From Zingiber officinale (Eukaryota; Streptophyta; Magnoliopsida; Zingiberales; Zingiberaceae), in contig NC_056005.1 in NCBI RefSeq assembly GCF_018446385.1, forward strand, positions 43,219,461-43,283,460: a stretch of 64,000 nucleotides of DNA, written 5' to 3'. Under the pieces are notes generated by a model. That model did no database searches. It was not told the DNA's origin and saw only the letters and a list, made by a program, of their open reading frames with translations. Below, piece by piece: positions 18,123-62,706 of the stretch; position 1 is the first letter of the stretch; the number at the start of each line of letters is the position of its first letter. Both the position numbers and the translations under genes were made by a program.

Positions 18123-19808
18123 TGTTGGTGCAATTGACCTTAAAGATTTTAATATCAGACAAATATGTTTAAGTATGTTTAAATATAGAACTTGATCAAG
18201 AGAAGTCCTAGTTGTAGACCAGGCAAGGGGAAAAATCTTGGTATATCGTGGAAGTCATATGGATAAGTCTGGAGGGCTTGATCCCTGGATAGGCGAATAC
18301 TGAATCTTGGTGAGTGAAGCCAAAAGGAGAAAATCCTAAGGGGTGGTAACCTTAGGTCCTGGTGAGTGAAGCCAGGTTGAGAAAACCCTAGGGGATGGTA
18401 ACCTTAGGTCCTGGTGAGTGAAGCCAGGTTGAGAAAACCCTAGGGGGTGGTAACCTTAGGTAACGAGAAGTCTTGGAGGAGTGAACTCCAAGCAAGGTTG
18501 TTCGGATCTCAGTAAATCTAGGTTTAGGTTTGCCATTATATTCTGTATTACTATTATTGTTGTTGGCTAATGTAGTATTGCAGGAAAAGTCTTAGTGGAT
18601 CGGGCGATCAAACACTAAGCAGGAAAAGTCCAAACATGTCTGGAGGATCGTGTTTGGCAGGTAAGTTGAAGTAAACAAACTGAAGAAGCGACAGTGAGGT
18701 CGGGTTCCCGAAGGGAACAACTTTAGGTCGCTGATCCAACTGAAGAAACCGGAGAGGTTTCCAAGTTGAGATCAAGACAGTTTTACTGTCTTTCATATTA
18801 CTCATGCATTTTATATTACTGTGCTAATCTCGATTTTGCAGGGTATTTTGCTTAACACTGTTTTGCAGGTTCTGCTCGATCGGTCGACCGAACCACTTGA
18901 TCGGTCGATCGAACTAAGCAAAATCAGTACAACATTCAGATTAGATCAGAACATATCAGAGTCCGATCAAAGCTTGATCGGTCGACCGAACCAGAGGGTC
19001 GGTCGACCGAACCAGAGGGTCGGTCGACCGATCCATGGTGACTCAGCACTGGCCAGCTCATTAGCACTGATCAGCAGGAAAAGGAAAAAGGCTGATCGGT
19101 CGACCGAATCGGAGGACCGGTCGACCGATCCAATCAGCATTAACACCATATTAATGAAGATCTCGGCTGATTTAGACGAACAGGGAAATAGTCTCTTCGA
19201 TCGACAAAAAAACGGGTTCGGTCGACCAAACCATTCATGAGCATTTAGTGCAAAAGATCGAGCCAGCTTCAGATTCCAGCCAGGAAGGAAGGGGGCGGGT
19301 TCGGTCGACCGAACAGAGGGATCGGTCGACTGAACCTCTAGTACGCCTATAAAAAGTGCTCGAAGTCAGAAGCTCAATAGAACAATTCTGATCATCAAAA
19401 AGATTCTTTTCTGCCTGCTGCTCGTGTTCCAAGCCTTCATCAAGCTAAGCAAGCTACTTCGTTCAAAAGCACCGACCACGCCTCAACCTTTTTTTATTAC
19501 TGTCAGTACATTTCTTATTGCACTTAATTTCATATAAGATAGTAGGGTTGTTACTATCTTATATTCTTGTAACTGTACGATCTACTTCTTTCTGAAGGAT
19601 TTCGGAAAGAAGAGTTATAGTGATTTGCCCATCGGTGCGGTCAAAGACCGCGGGCCTTCGAGTAGGAGTCAAGCTAGACTCCGAACGAAGTAAACAGACT
19701 TGTCTATTCTTTTCCGCTGTGCACGACTCTGTTTTTAAAAGATAAAGAAAAGTTTTAAAGCGTGATATTCACCTCCCCTCCCCTCTATCGCACGTTTTCG
19801 ATCTATCA
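18123..19808 (+). repeat. 5' LTR of gag-only element A
   Basis: It starts TGTTGGTGCAAT and ends TATCA. In order it holds hairpin units around GAGTGAA loops (18300-18492), a cluster of GGTCGACC palindromes (18880-19330), and a TATA-like cctataaaaagtgc near 19347 that probably drives transcription. It is alignable along its whole length with 35107-36640, with scattered differences and a roughly 40-base insertion in the 3' copy near 35510. Confidence 0.88.
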
Positions 19809-35106: not shown

Positions 35107-36640
35107 TGTTGGTGCAATCGACCTCCAAGGTTTTAATGTCAGACAAATATGTTTAAGTATGCTTGAGTATGCTTAAGTATGGAACTTGATCAAGGGAAGT
35201 CCTAGTTGTAGGCTAGGCAAGGGAAAAAAATCTTGGTATATCGTGGAAGTCAGGTGGATAGGTCTGAAGGTCTTGATCCTTGGGTAGCCGAATACTGAAT
35301 CTTGGTGAGTGAGGCCAAGTGGAGAAAATCCTAGGGGGTGGTAACCTTAGGTCATGGTGAGTGAAGCCAGGTTGAGAAAACCCTAGGGGGTGGTAACCTT
35401 AGGTCCTGGTGAGTGAAAGCAAGTTGAGAAAACCCTAGGGGGTGGTAACCTTAGGTAACGAGAAGTCTTGGAGGAGTGAACTCCAAGCAAGATTATTCGA
35501 ATGGTTTTTGGTCGACTGTGCGCGGTCGATCAGACTAGCGGATCTCGGTAAATCTAGGTTTAGGTTTACCATTGTATTCTGTATTACTATTATTATTGTT
35601 GGCTAATGTAGTATTACAGGAAAAGTTTTAGTGGATCGGGCGATCAGACACTAAGTAGGAAAAGCCCAAACATGTCTGGAGGACTATGTTTGGCAAGTAA
35701 GTTGAGGTAAACAAACTGGAAGAGCGACAGTGAGGTCGGGTTCCCGAAGGGAACAACCTTATGTCGCTGATCCAACTGAAGAAACCGAGAGATTTTCAAG
35801 TTAAAATCAAGACAATTTTACTATCTTTCATATTACTCATGCATTTTATATTACTGTGCTAATCTCGATTTTGTAGGGTGTTTTGCTTAACACTGTTTTG
35901 CAGGTTCTGCTCGATCGATCGACCGAACTAGGCAAAATCAGTACAACATTCAGATTAGATCAGAATAGATCAGAGTCCGATCAAAGCTTGATCGGTCGAC
36001 CGAACCAAAGGACCGGTCAACCGATCCATGGTGACTCAGCACTGGCCAGCTCATTAGCACCGATCAGCAGGAAAAGGAAAAAGGCTGATCAGTCAACCGA
36101 ACCAGAGGACCGGTCGACCGATCCAATCAGCATTAACACCATATTAATGAAGATCTTGACTGATTTAGACGAACAGGGAAATAGTCTGTTCGGTCGACCG
36201 AAAAACGGGTTCGATCGACCGAACCATTCATGAGCATTTACTGTAAAAGATCGAGCCAGCTTCAGATTTTAGCCAGGAAGGAAGGGAGCGGGTTCGGTCG
36301 ACCGAACAGAGGGATTAGTCGACCGAAACTCCAGTACACCTATAAAAAGTGCTCGAAGTTAGAAGCTCAATAGAACAATTCTGATCATCAAAAAGGTTCT
36401 TTTTTATCTGCTACTCGTGTTCCAAGCCTTTATGAAGCTAAGTAAGCTACTTCGTTCAAAAGCACCGACCGCGCCTCAACCTTTTTTTATTACTGTCGGT
36501 ACATTTTTTATTGCACTTAATTTCATATAAGATGGTAGGGTTGTTTCTATCTTACCGAAAGATTTCGGAAAGAAGAGTTATAGTGATTTGTCCATCGATG
36601 CGATCAAGGACCGTGAGCCTTCAAGTAGGAGTCAAGCTAG
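35107..36640 (+). repeat. 3' LTR of gag-only element A, truncated
   Basis: It starts TGTTGGTGCAAT and follows the 5' LTR until gtcaagctag at 36640, where homology ends abruptly. The last 130 or so bases found at 19678-19808 are missing. Everything past this point is agenet/BAH gene intron, so a deletion took the LTR end and possibly host sequence. Confidence 0.85.
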
Positions 36641-43892: not shown

Positions 43893-45503
43893 TGTTAGGA
43901 TCGACGGTCGCGGCTAGAGAGGGGGGGGTGTGAATAGCCGACCCCAAATCTTCGTTTCTTTCTACAAATCAAGGTTAGCGCAGCGGAAATAAACAATAGA
44001 AACGACAACGGAGAATAGCAAACCTCAAACTCGTCGATGTAACGAGGTTCGGAGATGAAACTCCTACTCCTTGGCGTGTCCGTAAGGTGGACGAAGCCTA
44101 TCAATCCGTCGGTGGATGAGTCCCCGAAAAATCGGCTAATAAGAACACTCCTTCTGGGTGGAGAAACCTCGCCACAGAAACTTCTTACAACAGCAAGAAA
44201 GGTGTACAAAAATACAACACAAAACAGAAGACAATATGAATGTACAAAACAAAGTTTGCCTACTGTTCTTGTCGACTGGAATCCAAAGCAGCAACTTCAG
44301 GAAACTCACAGCAGCAGCTGATCAGTCGAGGAAAGCTCACCCGAAGCTTCAAGAAGGAGCTCACACGAAGCTCAGTAAGCTAAGAGCTCAGCAAAGCTCG
44401 ACCACAGTCAGGAGTAGAAAGAAGAAGCAGATCGAAGTTCAGTTCTGTAGTGCCTCTCGATCCTTTTATAACCTCTGATATCCTGAGTCAACCTGCGAAC
44501 CTGCAAGGCAAAAAGGCCAGAGTACAGAAACCCGAAATAGCCTAGCCGTTGAGTCACAACGGCTAGGCCTGGACCGATCAGGCTCCACCCTGATCGGTCC
44601 AGGGTGCTGCTGATCGGTCATGGGGACCGATCAGACTCTATGCTGATCGGTCCCTAGACCGATCAGCTGTTCTTTCCCAGCTCTGTTGCCTTCTTCTGAT
44701 CGGCCTCCTGATCGGTCTTCAGTCCGATCAGATAACACACAGAAGCTCACTGATCACCCGTATCACTGGATCGGTCACCAGACCGATCCAGGTTTAGAGC
44801 TCCAGCCCTAAACCCTAAATGGTCCTGAGAACGAGCTACCGAGCCCTCTCTTGACCTAGTCCGGAGAACGAGCTACCGAGCTCTCTCCGACTTCGTCCGG
44901 TCCAGAGAACGAGCTACCGAGCCCTCTCTGACCACAGTCCGGAGAACGAGCTACCGAGCCCTCTCCGACTTTTCGTGCCATCTCCGTGCCAAGTCTCCAT
45001 ACTTGGACTTTTCCCGTGCCAAGCTCCCTGCTTGGACTTTTCACCAGATGTCTGGTCAACCTTGACCCATCTGGATTTTCCTTGCCTGGTTTCACTCACC
45101 AGGACTTTCCAACTGCCTGGCTTCACTCACTAGGACTTTCCCACTGCCTCGCTTCACTCACCAGGACTTTCACCAACTGCCTGGCTTCACTCACCAGGAC
45201 TTTCCCATTGCCTGGCTTCACTCACCAGGACTTTCACTTTCACCTAACTTCACTCATTAGGATTTTCACTCTGCCTAACATCCCAGTTAGGACTTCCCAG
45301 TCAAGTATCCGGTCAACCTTGACCTACTTGACTCTTCTTCATTCAACCTGATCAGACCCTGATCAGTATCTCTCCGCATGGACAACTACACCTGCATTGT
45401 CCATGTCTACATGTCTTTCTGTATTGTCAAACATCGAAACCATGACCAAGGTTTACGCTTGGTCAACTAGGTCAACCTTGACCCACTGGAAATTGCACCA
45501 ACA
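43893..45503 (-). repeat. Solo LTR of a related gag-only family
   Basis: On the minus strand it starts TGTTGGTGCAATTTCC and ends GATCCTAACA. It contains hairpin units with TGAGTGAAG loops (45080-45270), a cluster of GATCGGTCC/GGACCGATC palindromes (44570-44790), and no internal element sequence. The flanks CTAAT (43888-43892) and CTAGT (45504-45508) agree at four of five bases, as expected for an old target duplication. Gag of element B continues on its right side and non-coding interior on its left. Confidence 0.75.
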
Positions 45504-46204: not shown

Positions 46205-46470
46205 CATTTAACAACACTGAAACGACAATGGTTTTATGCCAAATCATTGTTGTTTTGCCTTTTAACAACGGTTTTAACAAAAACCGTTGTCTTTTAGCAG
46301 TTTTTTTGACCTACGACAACGGTTTCTAAAAACTGTTGTCTATTTATGTTTTTTTGGAGCTACGACAACGGTTTTTAAAGACTACGACAACAGTTTTTGA
46401 AAACTGTTGTCTTTGTGCGCTTTTTTGGAATTACGACAACAGTTTTTGAAAACCGTTGTCTATTAAGTGA
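46205..46470 (+). repeat. Left subterminal repeats of the CACTA element
   Basis: Repeated inverted units of the form ACAACGGTTTTTAAA / AACCGTTGTC about 50-60 bases apart. They are the probable transposase binding sites and are mirrored at 57215-57480. Confidence 0.85.
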
Positions 46471-46474
46471 TATT

Positions 46475-46774
46475 GAATACCGGTGTTTTTTTCCTTCGTC
46501 GTTTTTTCCCCTTCGCCAATTTTTGCCGCCGCTTTTTTTCTTTCCCTCTCCCCGAAAGTTTTTTGCTGCCGCATTCCCCCCTTTACCTTCTCGATCCCTA
46601 AGCATTTCCGTCCCTCTTTTCTCACAATCTCTCGCTCACCGAAGCCGCGCAGGAGCAGCAGCAGCCGGGAAGAGCGATCGCAGGGTGACAACGAGGGTCT
46701 GGATCATGGGAGAGTGCATGACGGAGGCCAGGACGCAAGCGGACACCCCCCCCCCCCCCCCAGGACGGCTAAAT
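46475..46774 (+). other. CACTA interior, leader-like C/T-rich block
   Basis: A C/T-rich then GC-rich stretch like a plant 5' leader, ending in 16 C residues. It lies upstream of the AHP exon that resumes after the LTR insertion and may be its captured leader. Open frames here have no recognisable product. Confidence 0.4.
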
Positions 46775-47755
46775 TGTTGGTGCAACATCTCTCAGGTCAA
46801 GGTTGACCTGGTTGACTAAGCTTGAGTCTTGGTTTGGGTTTCGATGTTTGACAATACAAGGTTGATTGAACAAGAGTCAAGTAGGTCAAGGATTGACCGG
46901 ATACTTGGCTGGGAAGTCCTAACTGGGATGTTAGGCGAAATGAAAGTCCTGGTGAGTGAAGTCAGGTAGCGGAGAAAACCAAGAGCTGGATCAATTAGTG
47001 GATCGATCAGTGGATCAATCAGTGGATCGATCAGTGGATCGATCCAGGCAGTTTCCCAGCGCACAGAAAGCCTCTGGATCGATCAGTGGATCGATCCAGA
47101 GGTCCCAATCGATCAGTGGATCGATTGAGACGCTGCTGCTTCGCGCGATAAGCGCTGGATCGATCCAGGCATTTTTCCAGAGCACAGAGGCACTTTGGAT
47201 CGATCCGTGGATCGATCCAAAGCCTCCCCGATCGATTGGGAGCATTCCAATCGATCGAGATTCGACCGTTAGCGTCGATTTAAGCCGCAGGCATTCATTT
47301 CCTTCGAAAATTGCTTCCACGACAGCTCAGATCTTCACCAGCGACTCCACAGAGCTCTCCACGCTAGTTCTTCTTGGAGGTTCTTCCAAGTCAAGAGGTG
47401 GATCTATTGCAAGAGGAAGAAAGCTAGGGTTAGGGTTTTCTTGTACTCATTGTAAGCTTTGTGCTTGTATTTTTGTATCCTTTCCCCTTCTTCTTGTAGT
47501 GTGAACTTGTAGGGCTTCTCCGCCTTCGGTAGTTACCGAAAAGGAGGGTTTTATTAGTGGAGGGTGCGTGAGTAGGTGTGGATCTTTGGACTAGTCACCT
47601 CTTGTGAGGTGGATATCAAGTAAACCAACCTTGTTAGCGTTGTGTGGTTTGTTTCTTGTATTTCTGCTGCACATCTTTGAAGAAACAAGAAACGACGAGC
47701 ATCTAGCACACGATGAGCTATTCACCCTCCCTCTAGCTACTTTTCGATCCCAACA
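46775..47755 (+). repeat. 5' LTR of element C, array deleted
   Basis: It follows the 3' LTR closely except that the segment equal to 52289-52953 is missing between gtagcggagaaa and agagctgg. A cluster of ATCGATC palindromes (46985-47265) is kept. Confidence 0.9.
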
Positions 47756-47757
47756 AG

Positions 47758-47769
47758 TGGTATCAGAGC
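47758..47769 (+). other. Primer binding site (tRNA-Met) of element C
   Basis: TGGTATCAGAGC, two bases after the LTR end, is an exact match to the usual initiator tRNA-Met complement. Confidence 0.9.
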
Positions 47770-47888
47770 GAGACCGCTCTTCACCGGAATTATCACCAGA
47801 AGGGGCAAACAAAACAAGCAAAGCTAGAGGGTGAAGAAATTGGAGCAAATTCATTAAAGTCAAAGAATTCAAGAAGCTCAACTTCAAG

Positions 47889-49266
47889 ATGCAATTCCAA
47901 GATGGATTTGGATTTGACACAAGGGTGACTCCACCGTACATATCTACAAGCTTCGATCTTTGGAGATCAAGGATCGAGAATTTCTTAATGGTGGAGATAG
48001 AGCAATGGTTTGCTCTTATAGAAGGTTTTGAAGCTCCAAAGAACTCCAAGGGCAAAGCTCTCAAGAAAAGCAAATGGAGTAAGGAGCAACTCCAAAGATG
48101 TGAGGCCAATGACAAAGTGACCAAGCTTTTGGTCAATTTATTGCCAAGCAACATCTTGGAGCAAATTGGAGAGTTTGAAGATGCCAAGGAGCTTTGGAGC
48201 AAATTGGCAAGGATTCATGAGATCCCCTCCACTGTACCAAATCAAGGAGAATCCAAAGAGGGCGACTCAATGGATCAAAACCAAGAAGAGGAGGACTCCG
48301 AGGTTGAGAGATGTTCAACCTCCGAAGAGGAGGTCCAAGAAGCTTCATCCTCAAAGGAGAGCAATCAAAAGAGCAAGGAAGGAGTTTCATGTATAAGAGG
48401 ATGAAGATGAAGAAGAAGGTGAAGTCTCCACCTCTAGGATTGAGGGGGAGCAATCTTCATTGACACTGGAACAAGAGCAAGAAGAATCCTCCACATCCGG
48501 GTCAAGAGAAGAAGAGGATGAAGAAGCTTCCACCTCCACAAGTCAAGCAAAATCAAATGGAGGAATATCATCTTCGGATCAAGAGGAAGCTTCTACCTCC
48601 GGATCCAAAGGAGAAAGTGTCATCCCTACACAAAAAGGTATAAACATTTCAATTAATAATAAAAATCATATTATATGCTTTGAATGTAGGGAACATGGGC
48701 ATTACAAGAGCAAATGCCCTAAATTAGCCAAGAAGAAGGGCCAAGTGGCATTAAAGGGCAAGGAGAAGCCCAAGGAGACCATCCCTGGAACAAAGAAGAG
48801 CAAGGAGCACATTGTGTGCTTCTCTTGCAATCAAAAGGGGCATTACCGAAGTCAATGCCCTAAGGGGAAGAAGGTGGTCAAGGCTCAAGGAGGAAGCTCA
48901 ACTCAAGGGGGAGCCTCCAAGGTGAAAAGAAAGATAACCTTTATTGAGCCTATCCCTTTGAATAATGGTAAAAAGCATGATAGTTCAAGTTTATATCATT
49001 TTAATGCTATTTATCATGAAAATAGGAAGCATGATAGCATTAAGGAAAATCATGTAGCTTATCATGCCAAAACCTCTCAATCTAGGGTTAGAAAGGTAGA
49101 TAGAAACTTAGGTAAGAACCCTAAGGATTCTAGGTATGTACCTAAGAAGAAGAAAAATCATGATTTTAGTGAAAAATCTATGGTTGAGGGATTATGGAAG
49201 GAAAATCAAGTCTTGAGGTCAAGACTTGATAAATTAGAAAAGACCTTAGAAAAATCACAAATATGA
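47889..49266 (+). pseudogene. gag of element C with frameshift
   Basis: The first frame (47889-48404, 171 codons) has the copia-type gag core: FDLWRSRIENFL, a W near residue 40, LLVNLLPSNILEQIG and AKELWSKLARIHE. A small indel near 48390 then moves the reading to a second frame. That frame is Glu/Ser-rich and holds two knuckles, CFECREHGHYKSKC near 48679 and CFSCNQKGHYRSQC near 48820. It ends with LRSRLDKLEKTLEK and a TGA at 49264-49266. Gag packages element RNA. The frameshift leaves this copy defective. Confidence 0.82.
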
Positions 49267-49655
49267 CACAAGGGTCTAAGGGTAAAAATCTAAGTCTAGG
49301 AGTATCAAAGTCATCCAATGGTAATAGAGGTTTGGGATACAAACCTAAGGCTAAGAAGGATGAATTTTCGTACCATAGGGTTCCATATAGTTATGGAACT
49401 AACCCTAGGTCTAGTGGTCAAGTCAAGAATACTAGGGAAGTCATCCCTAAGAGTATTTTTGCAATAAATGTGACTAAGACTTCTAAGAAGTCTAAGAAAG
49501 TCACAAACAAGGTCACAAGGGAGGCTATCCCTAGAGTTGACCTAGAAAAAGTGACCAAGGTTTCCAAGAAGCCAAACAAGGTCACTAGAAAGGTATCTAG
49601 GGAAGTTATCCCTAGTGAATACCTAGAGCATCCAAGGAGCACCAATAGGTGTTGA
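49263..49655 (+). pseudogene. gag tail of element C, shifted frame
   Basis: Its ATG overlaps the preceding stop (ATGA). The frame is rich in Lys, Ser and Thr, has GLGYKPKAKK like the gag tail of element B, and then repeats a VTRE(A/V)IP-type motif several times. It was probably continuous with gag before a frameshift. It could instead be a separate small product, but nothing else supports that. Confidence 0.5.
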
Positions 49656-52088
49656 GTTCCTAGGAGCATCTTCTCTACCCCATAGATGGGTTAGAGAGTG
49701 TCAACTCTAAGAAGAAGGGTAGTTAACCCAACTTTGAAGAAATTGACACTCAAGGAGCATTTTCAAGGTTATTATTAACCTTTGAGAATGAAAAGGATTA
49801 TTGTTTACTCTTCGAAAAGAGTAAAATGTGCCAAATTTGAGAAGTCTTGATCTTATTTTAAAATGGCACTGTTTAGGAAAGACATAAGAAATACCAAGTT
49901 AGGATTTTGGTATTTGCTTAGTAATTTAAGGCAAATCTAAGCCTTAACTTAAAATGGTACTCTTGTGAAATATGCCAACATTTGAGGAATAAGCTTGATT
50001 TCAATTGGTATAAGTTAATCAAGAGAATTAATAATGCCAAGTTAGGTTTTGGCATTTTCTTGGAGCATTTAGAGGGCAATCTAGGTTTAAGTTTTAACTT
50101 AGCTAAGGTTTAAGGACACCTAGATAGGTAATCTAGGTATTTTATTTATGCTAAACCTTGCCATGATTGTTTGCTCACTATATGCCATGACATCATATTT
50201 AGTTTTATATTTTGTATTCATGACTTACTATAAAAAAAATAAATAATACAAAAATACCATGTCATGTCATACATACATCATGTAGTTATAGGAATCTTTC
50301 TTTTGAAAGCTAATCCATTTTGATGTATGCCAGAACATTATCATGCATTATGTTTATTTCCTTAAAATTAAGGACAAAAGGCATTTATAAACAAGTGAAA
50401 TCAACAAGTAACATCCTTGGTGGATGTTTACCACTCAAAATGCCTAGAAAGATATGCATGATCCCTAGAATAGGAAAAAACCAAAATTTACATCTCACAA
50501 AGACCTATAAGATGACTTGTATGTGGTTTAGTGCACATTAGATACAAGTGAGGTGTAAGGATGATGAACAAAACTCAAGATGTTGATTTAGTACATTCAT
50601 TTGAGTTTTAAGTTCATCAAAACACATAGTTATGTGTTTTTCCCATCATTGGGAAAGTTAATGTACAAATCATGTGCATTATGCCCAAGGAACATGCTGG
50701 GATATTGGTTTTGAAAATGGTTTTAAAATGATTTTGGAAAACCTTGGTGAAAGCTATCTTTTGATAGTAATCACCATTGCATAGTTAGACACAAACTTGA
50801 AGAAAACACTAAAGTTTTTGCAAGTTTTCAAGTTTGTGTCAATCTTTGAAAACATAAAGTATTTTCATAGAAAACTATTTTTCCATGATAATATATGCCC
50901 TAAACAATGTCTACACAAATTATCACAATTTTTGGAATTTTGTAGAATTTTTTAGGAGTTTCTGAAGTTGACTGAAATTGAATTTCAACAACTTTCAGAC
51001 CTCAATCGATCACCCGATCGATTGAAGGGTCTCAATCGATCGGGCGATCGATTGAGAGTAGGCGTTCTGCGAACAGAAGCCGTCTGGATCGATCCACCGA
51101 TCGATCCAACCCTCCTGAATCGATCAGTGGATCGATTCAGCAAGGTTCAATCGATTGGAACCCAACTCCAATCGATCCAAGTTGTTGATTTTGGCTGGGA
51201 AGGCCTGATTTCAGCATTTTGAACCTATGTTAGTCTAGGTAACCATTCCAAACCCCTCAAAATACATTTGTATACATAAAAAGGGAGTTTTCATGTTGAA
51301 AACAAGGATGGATTGGTTAAGGAAGACTATATTGAAGTTTAGGTTGAGGTTTGTTTCAAAGTTTTGAATATTTGAACCTCACAACTTCAAAATTTGGGTT
51401 TCCTAAAGGTTTAGGGATTCCAAGTCATTGTTGGTGCAATGACAGAAGTTATCACCATGTCTTTAGGGGGAGGGACTCTTTAAAGACATGAAAATTATTT
51501 TTCATGAACCTTGGAAGGTGGTTAACTTTCTGTGTGAGAAAATGCTCAAGGTTGAGCATTTGGACTTTACTGGGGAGTGGATATCCTCATTGTTCAACTG
51601 GTTTCAAGTGGATAATGCTCAAGGATGGGCATTTGCCTACATTGAGGAAGAATGTAGGGTTAAGGATAAATGAAGGGTATGAGACCTTCATTTGGGTCAT
51701 TGGACCTTGTTATTGCTCCAGGGCGAGCATTGTTGATAATGAAGGGAATGGGTCCTTCATTATCGTGTTGATCACAACGAGTGAAGTTGTGAACCATGAT
51801 GAGCAACTCTTCAGGGGGAGAGTTTTCAATTGGGGCATGGGTTGATGTGTGCTCAAAGATGGATTGATGTGTGCCAATAGGGGGAGAATGAAAGGACTTG
51901 TGAATGGGAGTAAGTTAGGCTTTCATTACCTAGAGGGAGTTTGCCCTCTTATGGGGAGAATGGAGAGCTTAACTTATGTGTTCATTACCTAGTGGCATGA
52001 AGAATAATGAGGCTATGGGATTAGCCTAACTTACATGTGGTATTGTAAGTGTTTTTGTGGTATTGTCAAACATCAAAAAGGGGGAGAT
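49656..52088 (+). other. Non-coding interior of element C
   Basis: No coding frame is supported. A cluster of ATCGATC-type palindromes (51000-51175) resembles the one in the LTRs. The region ends in a purine tract (aaaaagggggagat) before the 3' LTR. Confidence 0.65.
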
Positions 52089-53741
52089 TGTTGGTGCAAC
52101 ATCTCTCAGGTCAAGGTTGACCTGATTGACCAAGCTTGAGTCTTGGTTTGGGTTTCGATGTTTGACAGTACAAGGTTGATTGAACAAGAGTCAAGTAGGT
52201 CAAGGATTGACCGGATACTTGACTGGGAAGTCCTAACTGGGATGTTAGGCGAAATGAAAGTCCTGGTGAGTGAAGTCAGGTAGCGGAGAAATCCTAGTGA
52301 GTGAAGCTAGGTGAAAGTCCTAGTGAGTGAAGCCAGACAGAAGAGAAGTCCTGGTGAGTGAAGCTAGGCAGAAGGGAAATCCTAGTGAGTGAAGCTAGGT
52401 GAAAGACCTAGTGAGTGAAGCTAGGCAGGTTGAAAGTCCTGGTAAGTGAAGCCAGGTGAAAGACCTAGCGAGTGAAGTTAGGCAGTGAGAAAATCCTAGT
52501 GAGTGAAGCTAGGTGAAAGTCCTGGTGAGTGAAGCCAGGCAGAGGAAAATCCTAGTGAGTGAAGCTAGGTGAAAGACCTGGTGAGTGAAGCCAGGCAGAA
52601 AAGAAGTCCTAGTGAGTGAAGCTAGGCAAAATGGAAGTCCTGGTAAGTGAAGCCAGGCACGGGGAAAAATCCAGATGGGTCAAGGTTGATCAAACATCAG
52701 GTGAAAGTCCAAGTAGGTCAAGAGAGTGACCGGATACTTGGCACGATGAAGGAAAGTCCAAGTAGGTCAAAGGAATTGACAGGATACTTGGCAAGAGGAG
52801 AAAAGTCCAAGTGGGTCAAAGGGATTGACCGGACACTTGGTGAGGGAGTCCTAGCAGGTCAAGGAAGTGACAAGATGCTAGGCATGACGTACCAACAGGT
52901 TAAGGTTGACCGAATGTTGGTTTGGGAGGCTTGGGACTTGGTTTTGGGTAAAAACTAAGAGCTGGATCAATTAGTGGATCAATCAGTGGATCGATCAGTG
53001 GATCGATCAGTGGATCGATCCAGGTAGTTTCCCAGCGCACAGAAAGCCTCTGGATTGATCAGTGGATCGATCCAGAGGTCCCAATCGATCAGTGGATCGA
53101 TTGGGACGCTGCTGCTTCGCCCGATAAGCGCTGGATCGATCCGTGGATCGATCCAGGCATTTTTCCAGAGCACAGAGGTGCTCTGGATCGATCCGTGGAT
53201 CGATCCAAAGCCTCCCCGATCGATTGGGAGCATTCCAATCGATCGGGATTCGACCGTTAGCGTCGATTTAAGCCGCAGGCGTTCATTTCCTTCGAAAATT
53301 GCTTCCACGACAGCTCAGATCTTCATCAGCGACCCCACAGAGCTCTCCACGGCAGTTCTTGAAGTTCTTGGAGGTTCTTCCAAGTCAAGAGGCGGATCTA
53401 TTGCAAGAGGAAGAAAGCTAGGGTTTTCTTGTACTCATTGTAAGCTTTGTACTTGTATTTTGTATCCTTTCCCCTTCTTCTTGTAGTGTGAACTTGTAGG
53501 GCTTCTCCGCCTTCGGTAGTTACCGAAAAGGAGGGTTTTATTAGTGGAGGGTGCGTGAGTAAGTGTGGATCCTTGGACTAGTCACCTCTTGTGAGGTGGA
53601 TACCAAGTAAACCAACCTTGTTAGCGTTGTGTGGTTTGTTTCTTGTATTTCCGCTGCGCATCTTTGAAGAAACAAGCAACGACGAGCATCTAGCACGCGA
53701 CGAGCTATTCACGCCCCTCTAGCTACTTTTCGGTCCCAACA
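52089..53741 (+). repeat. 3' LTR of element C with hairpin array
   Basis: Full-length LTR. In order: long-loop inverted repeats at 52191-52249, fourteen short hairpin units at 52262-52657, further long-loop units at 52709-52920, an ATCGATC palindrome cluster at 52970-53250, and a leader-like end. Confidence 0.9.
52262..52920 (+). repeat. Hairpin array with co-varying stems in LTR C
   Basis: Fourteen units have five-base arms around a nine-base loop TGAGTGAAG (or a one-base variant). Ten have perfect arms (CCTAG/CTAGG or CCTGG/CCAGG), three pair if G-U is allowed, and one (52319) does not pair. Five larger units follow at 52709, 52758 and 52807 (CCAAGT/ACTTGG), 52850 (CCTAGC/GCTAGG) and 52892 (CCAACA/TGTTGG). 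Confidence 0.85.
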
Positions 53742-53751
53742 TAAATAATAG

Positions 53752-54486
53752 GCGGACTAACCTACAAAGGAGATATCTTGACTTCACATCTCCGCTCTTC
53801 CATGAGGTATGAAGAAGATTAGGACCCTGTGAGTGATCTGCTTCGAAACCCTACTCCTGTTCCATTCATTACATATGGCTTGGTCTTTGGATTTACCCTT
53901 CTGGATTTTGCACATTTTTTAAGAGATCAGCAGGTTGTGGACTTTAAGAAAGTGGATGCCCATGTTCACCAGTTCAAAGGCAGCAATGCCAGGTTTTCGT
54001 TCTTTGTTTTCTTCCTCCTTGTTCATTTTTAAAGCATATATGCTTTAGATCCTCAAGATTTGGCTTTTGCTCATGGAAACTAGCTAGTAACAAGATGATA
54101 CTTGCAACTGATTCAAAATCCCTTTTTTTTCCTTTGCCTTTCAACATTGGTGCCCAAAGCGTTAAACATGTCTGCATGGCCTTCCGCAATTACTGCGAGG
54201 AAATGGACCACGAAGGGTTAGTTTGTCTTCATGGTCACTCAATTTGAATCATCTAGTGACTTGCTGTCAAAAAATTTGTTTGTGTAGATGCCTGACATGT
54301 CTCCAGCAACTTAAGCAGGAGTATTTTCTGGTGAAGAACAAGTTGGAAACTTTATTTAAGGTAATGATCATGTAGCTTTGGTTGGAGGTATTCTTGGTAA
54401 TGTCATGAATCTTATACTAAAATTTTGTATGGTAGCTGGAGCAGCAGATTGTGGCTGCTGGTGGATCAATCCCCATGATGTGGTAG
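53752..54486 (+). pseudogene. Captured histidine phosphotransfer protein (AHP) gene
   Basis: AHPs relay phosphate in cytokinin two-component signalling. Exon-like pieces: about 53752-53815 (TNLQRRYLDFTSPLFHE), 53934-53992 (VVDFKKVDAHVHQF, phospho-accepting His codon 53967-53969), 54145-54216 (IGAQSVKHVCMAFRNYCEE), 54288-54360 (CLTCLQQLKQEY) and 54436-54486 (LEQQIVAAGGSIPMMW, TAG stop). Phases fit. The exon that should lie between the first two pieces, carrying the LQQLQDES-type helix, is missing. The acceptor before 54145 reads AA instead of AG. There is no clear start ATG. It is a broken genomic copy, introns included, inside the CACTA transposon. Confidence 0.88.
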
Positions 54487-57486: not shown

Positions 57487-58033
57487 TAGGAGATTGCTTG
57501 GCCTAAGTCAGAGTACATATATTGACAAGGACTAAAGTACTTGATAGCGGTCAAGAATATTCTTAAGTACTTGAGAAGGACTAAAGAATATTTCTTGATA
57601 TATGGAGGCGATGACGAGCTAGCTGTAAAGGGTGACCAGGATGATTATCGATCGCAGTCTAGGTTCGTGTTTTGCATAAATGGTGGTGCTGTGAGCTGGA
57701 AGAGTTCGAAGCAGGACACAGTTGCTGGTTTTACAACAGAGGTCGAGTATATTGCTGTATCAGAAGCAACAAAGGAGGAAGTTTGGATCCCCAAGTTCAT
57801 TACTGAGCTTGGGGTGGTTCCTAGCATAGCCGATCCGATAGAGCTCTATTGTGACAACAAGGGAGCAATTGCACAGGCTAAGGAACCTCGCTCACACCAG
57901 CGGACCAAACACATACTACAGCGCTTCCATCTCATTCGAGAGATCATCGATAGAGGAGATGTGAAGATTTGCAGAGTACCCACAGAGGCTAACATCGCTG
58001 ATCCCTTGACCAAGGCTTTGGCACAGAGAAAGC
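57487..58033 (+). pseudogene. copia RT end and RNase H, right of the CACTA element
   Basis: It resumes the copia RT block broken at 46187 (LGLSQSTYID), then after stops reads an RNase H frame from 57541. Visible are NILKYLRRTKEYFLIYGG, GGAVSWKSSKQDT, EVEYIAVSEATKE and LYCDNKGAI. It runs to LTKALAQRK and directly into an LTR at 58034 without the usual tail and purine tract. Part of the RT/RNase H join is missing, so the enzyme is dead. Confidence 0.85.
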
Positions 58034-60336
58034 TGTTGGAGTGTATACTGAAAGCCTAAGCTTTTATAAACATTTATTTTGAATAAAGAATCACATTTGG
58101 TCAAATTGTCTACATTTAGTTGTAGTTGTTCAATTAATTTATATTGTAGATAACATAGTATGTGGTGCTACATACAGAAGATGATGTTATCAGTACCTTA
58201 TAAATTATAAACAGTAGCTCACGACCAAAATGGAAAGGAACAAACCATTGGAAGGTCGTAGTGTAATTAGGAATTAGTTTATCTTGACTATATAATTACA
58301 CTAGTACACTTAGAGTGTATTGAGTAGGATCATTTGAGGTTGTTTCTTTTATACTAACTTTATAAAGGAACAAATACCTCAGTTATTATAGAAGTGTGTG
58401 CTCTTAATCCTAATATAATAACAAGCACATATATTTGATATTTATTTCTTTAATTTATCAATGGGTGAGATTTAGTTCGATAAATCAATAAGCTCGATAA
58501 GTTGGGAAATGATATTACTTATAGTGTGTGTTGTTGATTATAAAAGGAAATTGTGTCCTAGTAATCTAGGTTGATAATGTCCCCAAGATGAACTCATAAA
58601 GATTGTCATGTTAAACCCTGCAGGTGGACTTAGTCCGACATGACAATGAGGTTGAGTGGTACTATTCTTGGATAAAGATATTAATTAAATGAGTTGTCAG
58701 TAACTCACTTAATTAGTGGACATTTGACATCTTAAACACAGGGAGACTAACATACTTATAATAAGAAGGAGCCCAAAAATGTAATTTGGGATTGGTGCGG
58801 TAGTTCAATAATAGTTCTCTAGTGGAATGAATTATTATTGATAAAGTTAAGTTGTGTGTTCGGGGCGAACATGGGATGCTTAATTTTATCGGAAGACCAA
58901 AACCAATTCCTCCTCTTGGTCCCTATCGTAGCCTCTTATTTATAGAGTACTATACCCACCTTCATACCCATGATAAGGGAACCGACCAAGCTAGCTTGTG
59001 GTTCAAGCTAGGGCCGGCCAAGCCTTAATTCATGGGTGGCCGACCCCCATTAAATTAAAAGGAGTTTTAATTTTAATTTTTATTATGTGGAAGATATAAT
59101 TTATTAAAGAGAATTAAAATTAAAATATCTCTTTTAAAAGGATCTACAAAAGATTAAAGAAAGAGATTAGATCTCTTTCCTTATTTGTAGATTGGAAAGA
59201 TATTTTATTTTTTTTCTCTTTGAAAATTATTCACATGATGAAAAATTAAAATTATAGAAATTTCTTTTATCAACCATGAAGAGATTTTAAAGGGAAATTT
59301 TATTTTTTTTAAAAAAAAATTCCAAAGACAAATAAGGAAGTTTTATTGTTGATTAAAAATTGTCTTATTTGCTCTCCATGAGGTGGCCGGCCATGATTAA
59401 TTGATTAAGAAATTTTATTTAATTTTTCTTAATTAATTGTTGTCAAGGAAAGTTAAGGAAATTTTATTATAAATTTTATTTGCAAAAGCCAAGGAATATA
59501 AAAGAAGGGTGGGGGTCTTCATGGAGACAACCTCTTATCTCTCTCTTTTCTTGGTGTGTTCGTAACTCTCTCTCTCTCTCTTCCTTTGTGGTGGTAATCC
59601 TTCCTCTTGCTTGGAGTTCTTGTGGTGGGCGGATACTACTGGAGAAGAAGAAGAAGAAGGAGAGAAAGCTTGCATCCCTTAGAGCTTGGTTTTTCTCATC
59701 CTTGGTGAAGCTCTTGTTTTTTGGCGAACCTAGCTAGGAGGAGAAGAAGGTGCATTGGTGGTTTCTCATCTCAAAGATCGCTGCCCACCAACGTCCGAGG
59801 TTAGAAGAGGAATGGAGAAGATCAAGAGGTCTTTCTAGAAGGTATAACTAGTAATTTTCTTTTCGCATCATACTAGTTATTTTTTGGAAATAATACCAAA
59901 TACAAGAGGCTTACGATTCTAGTATTTCAATTTATTTTCATGTAGTGTTCTTATGTTTATTTCTGTGATTTGATTGTTTTTTTTTTTAAAGTTATTTTAG
60001 AAATTAAATATTAGCTTTCCATAAAGGTTTTGTCTAGTTGGTGGTTGTCATATCCAAGAATGCCATGCTGCCTCGCCACGCCAAGATCGGGAACCAATTA
60101 TGGAAATTAATATTTAATGGAATTAATAACTTAAGGTGATTTGGTCGAACGTGTTAAGTTCCGCAGGAGATCCAAGTCAAAACCTAAAAGAACAATAGAT
60201 TAAGTTTTGGATCAAACGTTAAGTTAGGTGAGGCGATCCAAAATTTAATTTAATTTAAAGAACACATGGTAGCTACGAAGGTTCAGCTTTGTAAAATTTT
60301 GTGCAAAGGAACCTCTAGTTTTCCTAGCAACCAACA
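58034..60336 (+). repeat. copia LTR, about 2.3 kb
   Basis: It starts TGTTGGAGTGTATACT and ends CAACCAACA. A TATA box (TATAAAAG, 59497-59504) precedes a CT-rich leader. A degenerate primer site follows at 60338. It lies between the RNase H fragment and a gag-pol region, so it may be shared by two tandem copies. Confidence 0.75.
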
Positions 60337-62219: not shown

Positions 62220-62706
62220 CACCTGTGTGTAGACACGGAGCCACCGATCATGTCTGCAATTCTTTACAGGGGTTCTAGGAAACCGACTATCTCAAGGAGA
62301 GATTACCGTCTACATGGGCAATGCTACTAAGGTGGCAGCTGTTGTAGTGGGAGACATCTACTTATCTTTTAGTAGAAATAAAAATTTGGTTTTAAGAAAT
62401 TGTCTTTATGTACCCAGTTTTAGAAAGAATTTAATTTCAGTTTCTAAACTGTTTTCAGATGGATATTCAGTTTCCTTTAGTAACGATGTAGTTATTAAGA
62501 GAAATAAAGTGATTATCTGTTCTGGTGCATTAGTTGACAATTTGTATACTTTAAATCCAATTTCTCCCACAAAGCAAAACATGGAAATTTATAACTCATC
62601 TTCTAACTCAAATAAGAGAAAAGAACCTTCAGAAATAAACCAAGCATATCTTTGGCATCTAAGGCTTGGTCATATTAACTTAAGTAGGATTCAGAGAGGC
62701 TTATAG
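62220..62706 (+). pseudogene. copia protease remnant and pre-integrase region
   Basis: The protease active site is decayed: only GATDHVCNS near 62230 remains and the Asp-Ser before it is lost. The frame from 62314 reads CLYVPSFRKNLISVSKLFSDGYSV in family style and ends with WHLRLGHINLSRIQRG, the His pair of the pre-integrase finger. A TAG stop at 62704-62706 follows. Confidence 0.8.

Follow-up and report, generated by a model that had tools for sequence, protein, structure and literature searches.

Paired arm variation around a conserved loop in a hairpin array of Sirevirus-like LTRs of Zingiber officinale suggests that folded shape matters to the element

The 3' long terminal repeat (LTR) of a Sirevirus-like Copia retrotransposon in Zingiber officinale, here called element C, carries an array of 14 short hairpins (S units) whose two arms vary together around a loop that is nearly fixed, which suggests that the folded shape, and not the sequence alone, matters to the element. 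The arms pair across several arm types, the loop recurs on more than one stem, and pairing is lost after insertion. Because the arms vary in pairs, the loop is fixed and pairing is lost once a copy has been inserted, the evidence points to a structure that is used during replication. The reading that is tentatively preferred here, with a probability of about 0.4, is that the array is a cis-acting RNA element selected for its structure, with a function that we infer from the patterns described below. Element C lies in a stretch of 64,000 nucleotides (the window).

LTR alignment, the target duplication and Pfam place element C at 46775..53741 on the plus strand, between copies of the 5-bp duplication TAAAT (46770-46774 and 53742-53746), with LTR termini TG..CA. 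The alignment gives a 3' LTR of 1653 bp (52089..53741, +), which bears out the location of the array claimed in the preliminary description, and a 5' LTR of 981 bp (46775..47755, +; TGTTGG..CCAACA) without the segment matching approximately 52284-52950. About 670 bp, including 13 units and the longer hairpins, are missing from the 5' LTR at 46970-46990, and the 3' LTR keeps 52284-52950. A presumed tRNA-Met-type primer site follows the 5' LTR. Only gag was found in the element: reading frames at 47835..49266 (+; frames and Pfam) have two CCHC zinc knuckles (zf-CCHC, 34.1 bits, cut-off 20.8), Retrotran_gag_2 reached 22 bits, under its cut-off of 27, and a Pfam scan of the internal region, covering 12 plus-strand frames of at least 60 aa, gave no pol domain.

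Sirevirus features are seen at the 3' junction of the element. A motif search found the terminal polypurine tract (PPT) AGGGGGAG at 52079..52086 (+), followed by AT and the start of the 3' LTR (TG at 52089), and this octamer occurs four times in all (51465, 51813, 51879, and 52079). In the passages of PMC2829016 drawn on here, the Sirevirus PPT octamer starts 10 bp before the 3' LTR, with an AT/TG attachment site, and the linker has about four identical PPT octamers; element C agrees in the position of the PPT, the junction, and the repeated octamers. An inverted repeat recognized by eye also flanks the PPT/3' LTR junction (52060-52079, GTATTGTCAAACATCAAAAA, and 52153-52171, TTTCGATGTTTGACAGTAC), with a right arm that begins 64 bp inside the LTR, where the Sirevirus average given in PMC2829016 is 28. 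In these three respects (octamer number, attachment site, and inverted repeat) element C matches those passages. No TATAWA was found within 1100 bp downstream of the last array unit, and since no consistent TATA box marks the start of transcription, the U3/R boundary used here is a presumed one. A search for relatives in viral contigs gave 0 matches.

The array (52262..52657, +; script recount and sequence reading) consists of 14 units of the form CCTRG-TGAGTGAAG-CYAGG, the first at 52262-52280 and the last at 52639-52657. The preliminary description had reported ten units with perfect arms, three with a G-U pair, and one unpaired, and the scripted recount is in exact agreement: single G-U pairs occur in the units at 52262 (pair 5), 52350 (pair 4), and 52464 (pair 5), the unit at 52319 is unpaired (CCTAG..CCAGA), and 13 of the 14 have standard pairs throughout when G-U is counted as standard. 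The same description called the loop constant, which is nearly right, but three of the 14 loops differ by one base (TAAGTGAAG in two units, CGAGTGAAG in one). Since the first and last bases of this loop are predicted to pair U-G in the sense RNA, the S stem is taken to be 6 bp and the effective loop GAGTGAA. Matches to GTGAGTGAAG with at most one mismatch number 27 in the window, compared to 3.6 expected and a maximum of 7 in 100 shuffles. The 5' LTR has a lone S unit (46948..46966, +; motif search and script) with a G-U that it shares with the first 3' LTR unit.

Predicted stem-loops extend beyond the 14 units, both upstream and downstream in U3, and are also found in the minus-strand LTR of the window. 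Before the array there is one member of a longer class, the L hairpins (GTCAAGTA/TACTTGAC, 52190..52223, +), and, by predicted folding, the hairpin CCTAAC/GTTAGG (52232..52249, +). After the array there are an L-like hairpin with one A-A mismatch (CCAGATG/CATCAGG, 52671..52701, +; CCAGATG/CATCTGG elsewhere), four L hairpins (CCAAGTA/TACTTGG at 52709..52741 and again at 52758..52791, CCAAGTG/CACTTGG at 52807..52840, and CCTAGCA/TGCTAGG at 52850..52882, all +), and a second L-like hairpin (ACCAACA/TGTTGGT, 52891..52921, +). The L class has a common core, GGTCA..TGAC, and outer arms of 7 bp. GATC-type palindromes (GGATCGATC..GATCGATCC, 52960..53260, +) have the strongest predicted folding among the LTR parts tested. 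Long GATC palindromes of the type GGATCGATCAGTGGATCGATCC occur at 52960-53260 with similar sequence in the linker (50985-51177), and both intervals have sub-threshold miRNA-precursor matches in Rfam. The minus-strand LTR (44600-45503) is predicted to be mostly a chain of varied stem-loops, with repeats around GAGAACGAGCTACCGAGCCCTCTC; a motif search found six S units there, including CCTAA..TTAGG (45085..45261, -). Directly before element C, 46215-46470 has repeated palindromes resembling ACAACGGTTTT..AAAACCGTTGTC, possibly a small inverted-repeat transposon. Other Copia-like frames in the window are at 126-1640 (integrase and zinc knuckle in Pfam), 62233-62706 (Pol_BBD and gag-pre-integrase), and 57526-58059 (no Pfam match).

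Relative to shuffled sequences, the array of element C has a folding z of -5.8 in the sense and -3.3 in the antisense direction, while the corresponding values are -4.1 and -5.3 for the part with L hairpins, -11.7 and -11.5 for the GATC palindromes, and -1.7 and -1.6 for the presumed R/U5. Folding z alone is non-specific, because two stretches of gag reach -2.9 to -4.2. Of ten S-array stretches, each compared to its own shuffles, nine have stronger predicted folding as sense than as antisense, one of them (L075) marginally; L077 is the only one that favours antisense, and L014 and L040, the latter being the largest array with 22 units (G000:C1:2652100-2654800), are near the level of their shuffles. 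Rfam returned 11 matches over 46700-53900, all below gathering and none covering the array.

The pairing of the S arms extends to the whole genome. Exact matches on both strands of the window's own genome (3.09 Gb, 211 contigs) number 110,714 for CCTGG..CCAGG and 99,394 for CCTAG..CTAGG, with 0 for the reversed control of each; such genome-wide repeat counts may be lower bounds, and a phased assembly would double-count alleles. At pair 4, G-C (110,714) and A-T (99,394) are accompanied by 7,846 G-U and 4,783 A-C forms, compared to about 57,000 and 54,000 of these mixed forms under independence. The counts for T-A, C-G, U-G, and C-A at pair 3 are 110,714, 1,294, 8,858, and 1,242, those for C-G, T-A, U-G, and C-A at pair 2 are 110,714, 1,227, 4,083, and 3,364, and pair 5 has 8,123 G-U and 1,673 A-C. 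Coupled changes of the arms, as claimed in the preliminary description, are thus found genome-wide, with odds ratios of 293 at pair 4, 13.0 at pair 3, and 9.9 at pair 2, in counts that do not represent independent events because copies are kin by descent, both haplotypes may be included, and many loci were selected for variants. A sample of 101 sources yielded 895 S units, 606 of them perfect and of seven arm types. This sample is non-random: for 40 stretches the source was in most cases an exact copy of one of the two main units, while a further 60 sources were picked from lists of arm variants, 24 of these for CTTGG/CCAAG or CCCGG/CCGGG. At pair 1 the sample has fewer U-G than C-A (11 and 22), a direction opposite to the genome-wide excess of G-U over A-C at the other pairs.

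It had been suggested at the outset that duplication of two ancestral units, CCTGG/CCAGG and CCTAG/CTAGG, could mimic part of this pattern; on the strictest form of this reading the pairing would be an artefact. The two main arm types do account for 568 of the 895 sampled units, and the number of units per array ranges from 1 to 22 over 61 sampled clusters, which suggests growth by tandem duplication as well as loss. However, further paired arm types contradict the suggestion, since CTTGG/CCAAG and CCCGG/CCGGG occur 1,227 and 1,294 times genome-wide and CCAAG/CTTGG and CCTAA/TTAGG are also present in the sample, and so do the L hairpins, every one of whose seven pairs occurs in two or more Watson-Crick forms. 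Duplication of two units is therefore considered a highly improbable source of the pairing. Of 373 L hairpins, 271 pair perfectly and fall into ten types of 7-bp arms; 94.8% of the pairs in the 373 are standard, compared to 71.6% between arms of different hairpins. For the 80 distinct L arm pairs the Watson-Crick fraction is 0.764, compared to 0.509 with right arms shuffled (1000 shuffles, maximum 0.580); with arms slid by one base it is 0.24. Mismatches in L hairpins have no G-U preference overall (43 G-U, 55 A-C).

The loop GAGTGAA is the most copied of the 18 sense-strand loops listed, present in 537 hairpins, in 98 of 99 sequences, and on three stems. Between perfect arms the 9-nt loop is TGAGTGAAG in 534 of 612 cases, a count that leaves out 61 loops in which position 4 is C, almost all of them reverse-strand copies. 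The closing bases between perfect arms are T-G in 582, T-A in 22, and C-G in 8 units, with C-A in 53 (almost all reverse-strand copies) and other combinations in 8. A scan for the motif with a stem found the S loop on an unrelated stem in the linker, TCACAAC-GAGTGAA-GTTGTGA (51772..51792, +). This hairpin, including variants, is present in 13 of 99 scanned sequences, many of which end short of the linker; its variable pair is C-G in 9, T-A in 2, U-G in 2, and C-A in 0 (n=13), and in the 8 of 13 with the junction matched it is 236-344 bp upstream of the 3' LTR polypurine tract. The third stem is CTTGGAG-GAGTGAA-CTCCAAG, which may descend from an S unit and is found in related LTRs in the window, once following three S units in 52-bp repeats (18306..18492, +; hairpin at 18472-18492) and once with three partly decayed S units (35301..35487, +; hairpin at 35467-35487). 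The 52-bp repeats (18306-18460 and 35301-35456) join an S unit to a second hairpin, CCTAAGG/CCTTAGG in the best-paired copy. Among GAGTGAA words outside S units in the window, 3 of 8 have 7-bp stems, compared to 0.3% of all 7-nt loops. A kissing partner for the loop was considered and rejected, as the sense strand of element C contains neither TTCACTC nor TCACTC.

When a copy inserts, its two LTRs have the same sequence. From 47 LTR sets paired by orientation, distance, and similarity, 45 were used; the two dropped sets, one of which is element C, had an identity below 0.93, and four of the used sets, with spacings of 8-13 kb, are presumed to represent outer elements that contain nested inserts. 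The comparison included 255 S units (1275 pairs), with 16 excluded as matching the mismatch pattern by which their locus had been selected. Inherited pairs, which are the same in both LTRs, are Watson-Crick in 1170 of 1195 cases, with 17 G-U, 2 A-C, and 6 other. Changes after insertion affect 80 of the 1275 pairs (39 G-U, 27 A-C, 14 other), and none of these is a Watson-Crick swap; two apparent swaps in L010, seen in a looser run with 17 sets, came from misaligned units of unequal number. Because the arms decay uncompensated after insertion, pairing is taken to be kept in the replicating lineage and not by cruciforms in the chromosome, the upkeep of which is rejected on the basis of 0 of 80 compensated changes. 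The preliminary description had proposed selection on a folded RNA or a cruciform; the cruciform is not supported, since arms mutate independently once inserted, and the folded RNA is weakly favoured by a lean towards G-U among inherited states.

This lean goes beyond the mutation spectrum when inherited G-U is compared to A-C in S units (Fisher p=0.014; stratified one-sided p=0.02), is non-significant when G-U is compared to all other states (p=0.17), and has p=0.046 when S and L are pooled without stratification. In the L comparison, which drew on 44 of 46 LTR pairs and 157 hairpins, 1034 inherited states are Watson-Crick, 11 G-U, 7 A-C, and 15 other, with G-U not favoured, and 9 of the 33 inherited unpaired cells belong to two hairpins that are out of register; changes after insertion are A-C in 11, G-U in 10, other in 10, and a swap in 1 (1 of 32). 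The genome-wide excess of G-U was rejected as proof of RNA because it has the same direction as the post-insertion changes in S units, where G-U:A-C is 8:5 at pair 2, 7:5 at pair 4, and 16:1 at pair 5, and this wobble excess is largely mutational. At pair 3 G-U exceeds A-C by 7.1 to 1 genome-wide, with post-insertion events (3:2) too few to judge. The changes at pair 5 are strand-asymmetric, with C to T in the right arm, beside the loop, 16 times and the mirror change once. Taken together, these comparisons weakly support RNA rather than DNA.

Pairing that is kept in the lineage could also arise without selection, if strand switching at hairpins during reverse transcription copies one arm onto the other and palindromes in this way correct themselves. 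Such a process predicts that paired changes occur in the replicating lineage but hardly ever once a copy has inserted, as is seen in both S units (0 of 80) and L hairpins (1 of 32), and the absence of G-U preference in L hairpins fits it as well. However, the conservation of TGAGTGAAG in 534 of 612 loops is left unexplained, and the lean of inherited S mismatches to G-U beyond the mutation spectrum, 17:2 (one-sided p=0.02), is not expected from such copying. Strand switching without selection is considered unlikely.

Although the preliminary description knew of no account of such a structure, palindrome arrays in Sirevirus LTRs have already been described. Bousios et al. (2010) reported palindromic repeated motifs (RM) in these LTRs and proposed them as regulatory boxes (PMC2829016). 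In the portions of that paper used here, there are at least eight RM boxes per element, starting 200-400 bp past the PPT/LTR junction and running for 300-500 bp, with a CGG-CCG core except in Tnd-1 (ACAATCGATTGT) and, as tabulated, few middle bases; a TATA box is found downstream, and the boxes form a CpG island. Both RM boxes and the S array consist of many palindromes that are almost alike and are situated upstream within the LTR, in its first half, with RM boxes occurring also in the linker in envelope-containing Sireviruses (PMC2829016, same portions). The S array has 14 units, spans 396 bp, and starts 173 bp past the LTR start, just under the RM range. The CGG-CCG core is absent from all 14 units, which have CCTGG or CCTAG and their partners as arms, and the array is unlike RM boxes also in having no TATAWA in the 1100 bp after it, and in its 5-6 bp arms, its conserved loop, the variation of arms within one array, and the several hairpin classes in a row. 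By eye, the GATC palindromes beside the array resemble the RM of Tnd-1, as printed there, more closely. The S array is thus a variant, without the CGG-CCG core, of a known kind of array, to which it adds paired-arm evidence. In the literature searched, no paired-arm evidence for such arrays was found, and the top-ranked matches listed contained the 9-mer only and not the longer S unit.

By analogy with RM boxes, each S unit may be a dyad site for a transcription factor, making the array a set of enhancer boxes in double-stranded DNA. The copy number and symmetry are those of RM boxes, with a position close to theirs (PMC2829016, in the portions used), the fixed 9-mer could be a binding site, and the mixed evidence for RNA or DNA leaves room for DNA. 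A dyad site would be expected to have fixed arms, however, while here the arms vary in pairs and the spacer is fixed; moreover, one class of L hairpins has ten arm types, and the hairpin with the S loop is also found in the linker, outside the LTR. Enhancer boxes are accordingly regarded as rather doubtful. The tandem palindromic boxes BI and BII in U3 of the Tnt1 LTR are protein-binding DNA and, like S units, are short symmetric U3 repeats; to our knowledge, variation in paired arms has not been reported for them. Box I of Tnt1 is cited in the text of PMC2829016 used here.

The hairpin palindromes of maize Sirevirus LTRs were reportedly identified as hotspots of small RNA by Bousios et al. 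in 2016, a study cited in PMC10760457, and they resemble the LTR of element C in being a palindrome-rich region predicted to fold. The array could accordingly be a small-RNA source, in which the host would dice the folded LTR for silencing and the structure would persist for some other reason or through a benefit to the host, as sections of PMC10760457 describe for maize Sirevirus palindromes. These include long palindromes (CACCGGACNNNGTCCGGTG, in the same sections), and the GATC palindromes adjacent to the array have 19 of 21 110-nt windows below the -40 kcal/mol mark used there. The S array, with stems of 6 bp, has 0 of 31 windows past -40 kcal/mol per 110 nt, the lowest being -36.4, and dicing alone would not favour the retention of pairs; a small-RNA source is thus an improbable reason for the array.

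If the array is instead a structure-selected RNA element, it would be a block of stem-loops in U3 of the LTR, beside the other predicted U3 stem-loops, with stems that in replicating copies are kept for their pairing and not their letters, and with the loop GAGUGAA conserved in sequence. This would most likely be because the folded RNA acts at the 3' end of the genomic RNA of the element, where a span of about 1.2 kb contains three polypurine tracts as well as the linker hairpin and the 3' U3 hairpins. The best guess is that the array offers many sites to one loop-reading protein, whether supplied by the host or by the element itself as its zinc-knuckle Gag, the putative binding of which would help packaging or reverse transcription. 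Retroviral packaging stem-loops are RNA hairpins that are read by their loop, with a fixed loop and stem letters that may vary; the S array differs in having many copies per element, and a binding protein or packaging role for it would be putative. That RNA is what folds, how far U3 extends, what binds the loop, and which step is served are all points that we infer. A more specific proposal, which is possible but on balance doubted, is a loop code, in which a single RNA-binding protein or RNA would recognize the heptaloop GAGUGAA repeatedly within each element, at the 3' end of the retrotransposon genome. The stems that bear this loop would need to pair but would otherwise be free in sequence, and its two main forms number more than 200,000 exact copies in one plant genome.

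The palindromes of Sirevirus LTRs have so far been interpreted either as enhancer boxes or as sources of small RNA, and the reason that elements keep a structure prone to silencing is posed as a question in the sections of PMC10760457 cited above. Since the arms are free but paired, the loop is fixed, and LTR pairs provide a test before and after insertion, whether structure or sequence is what matters can be asked directly in this family, which has more than 200,000 units in one genome.
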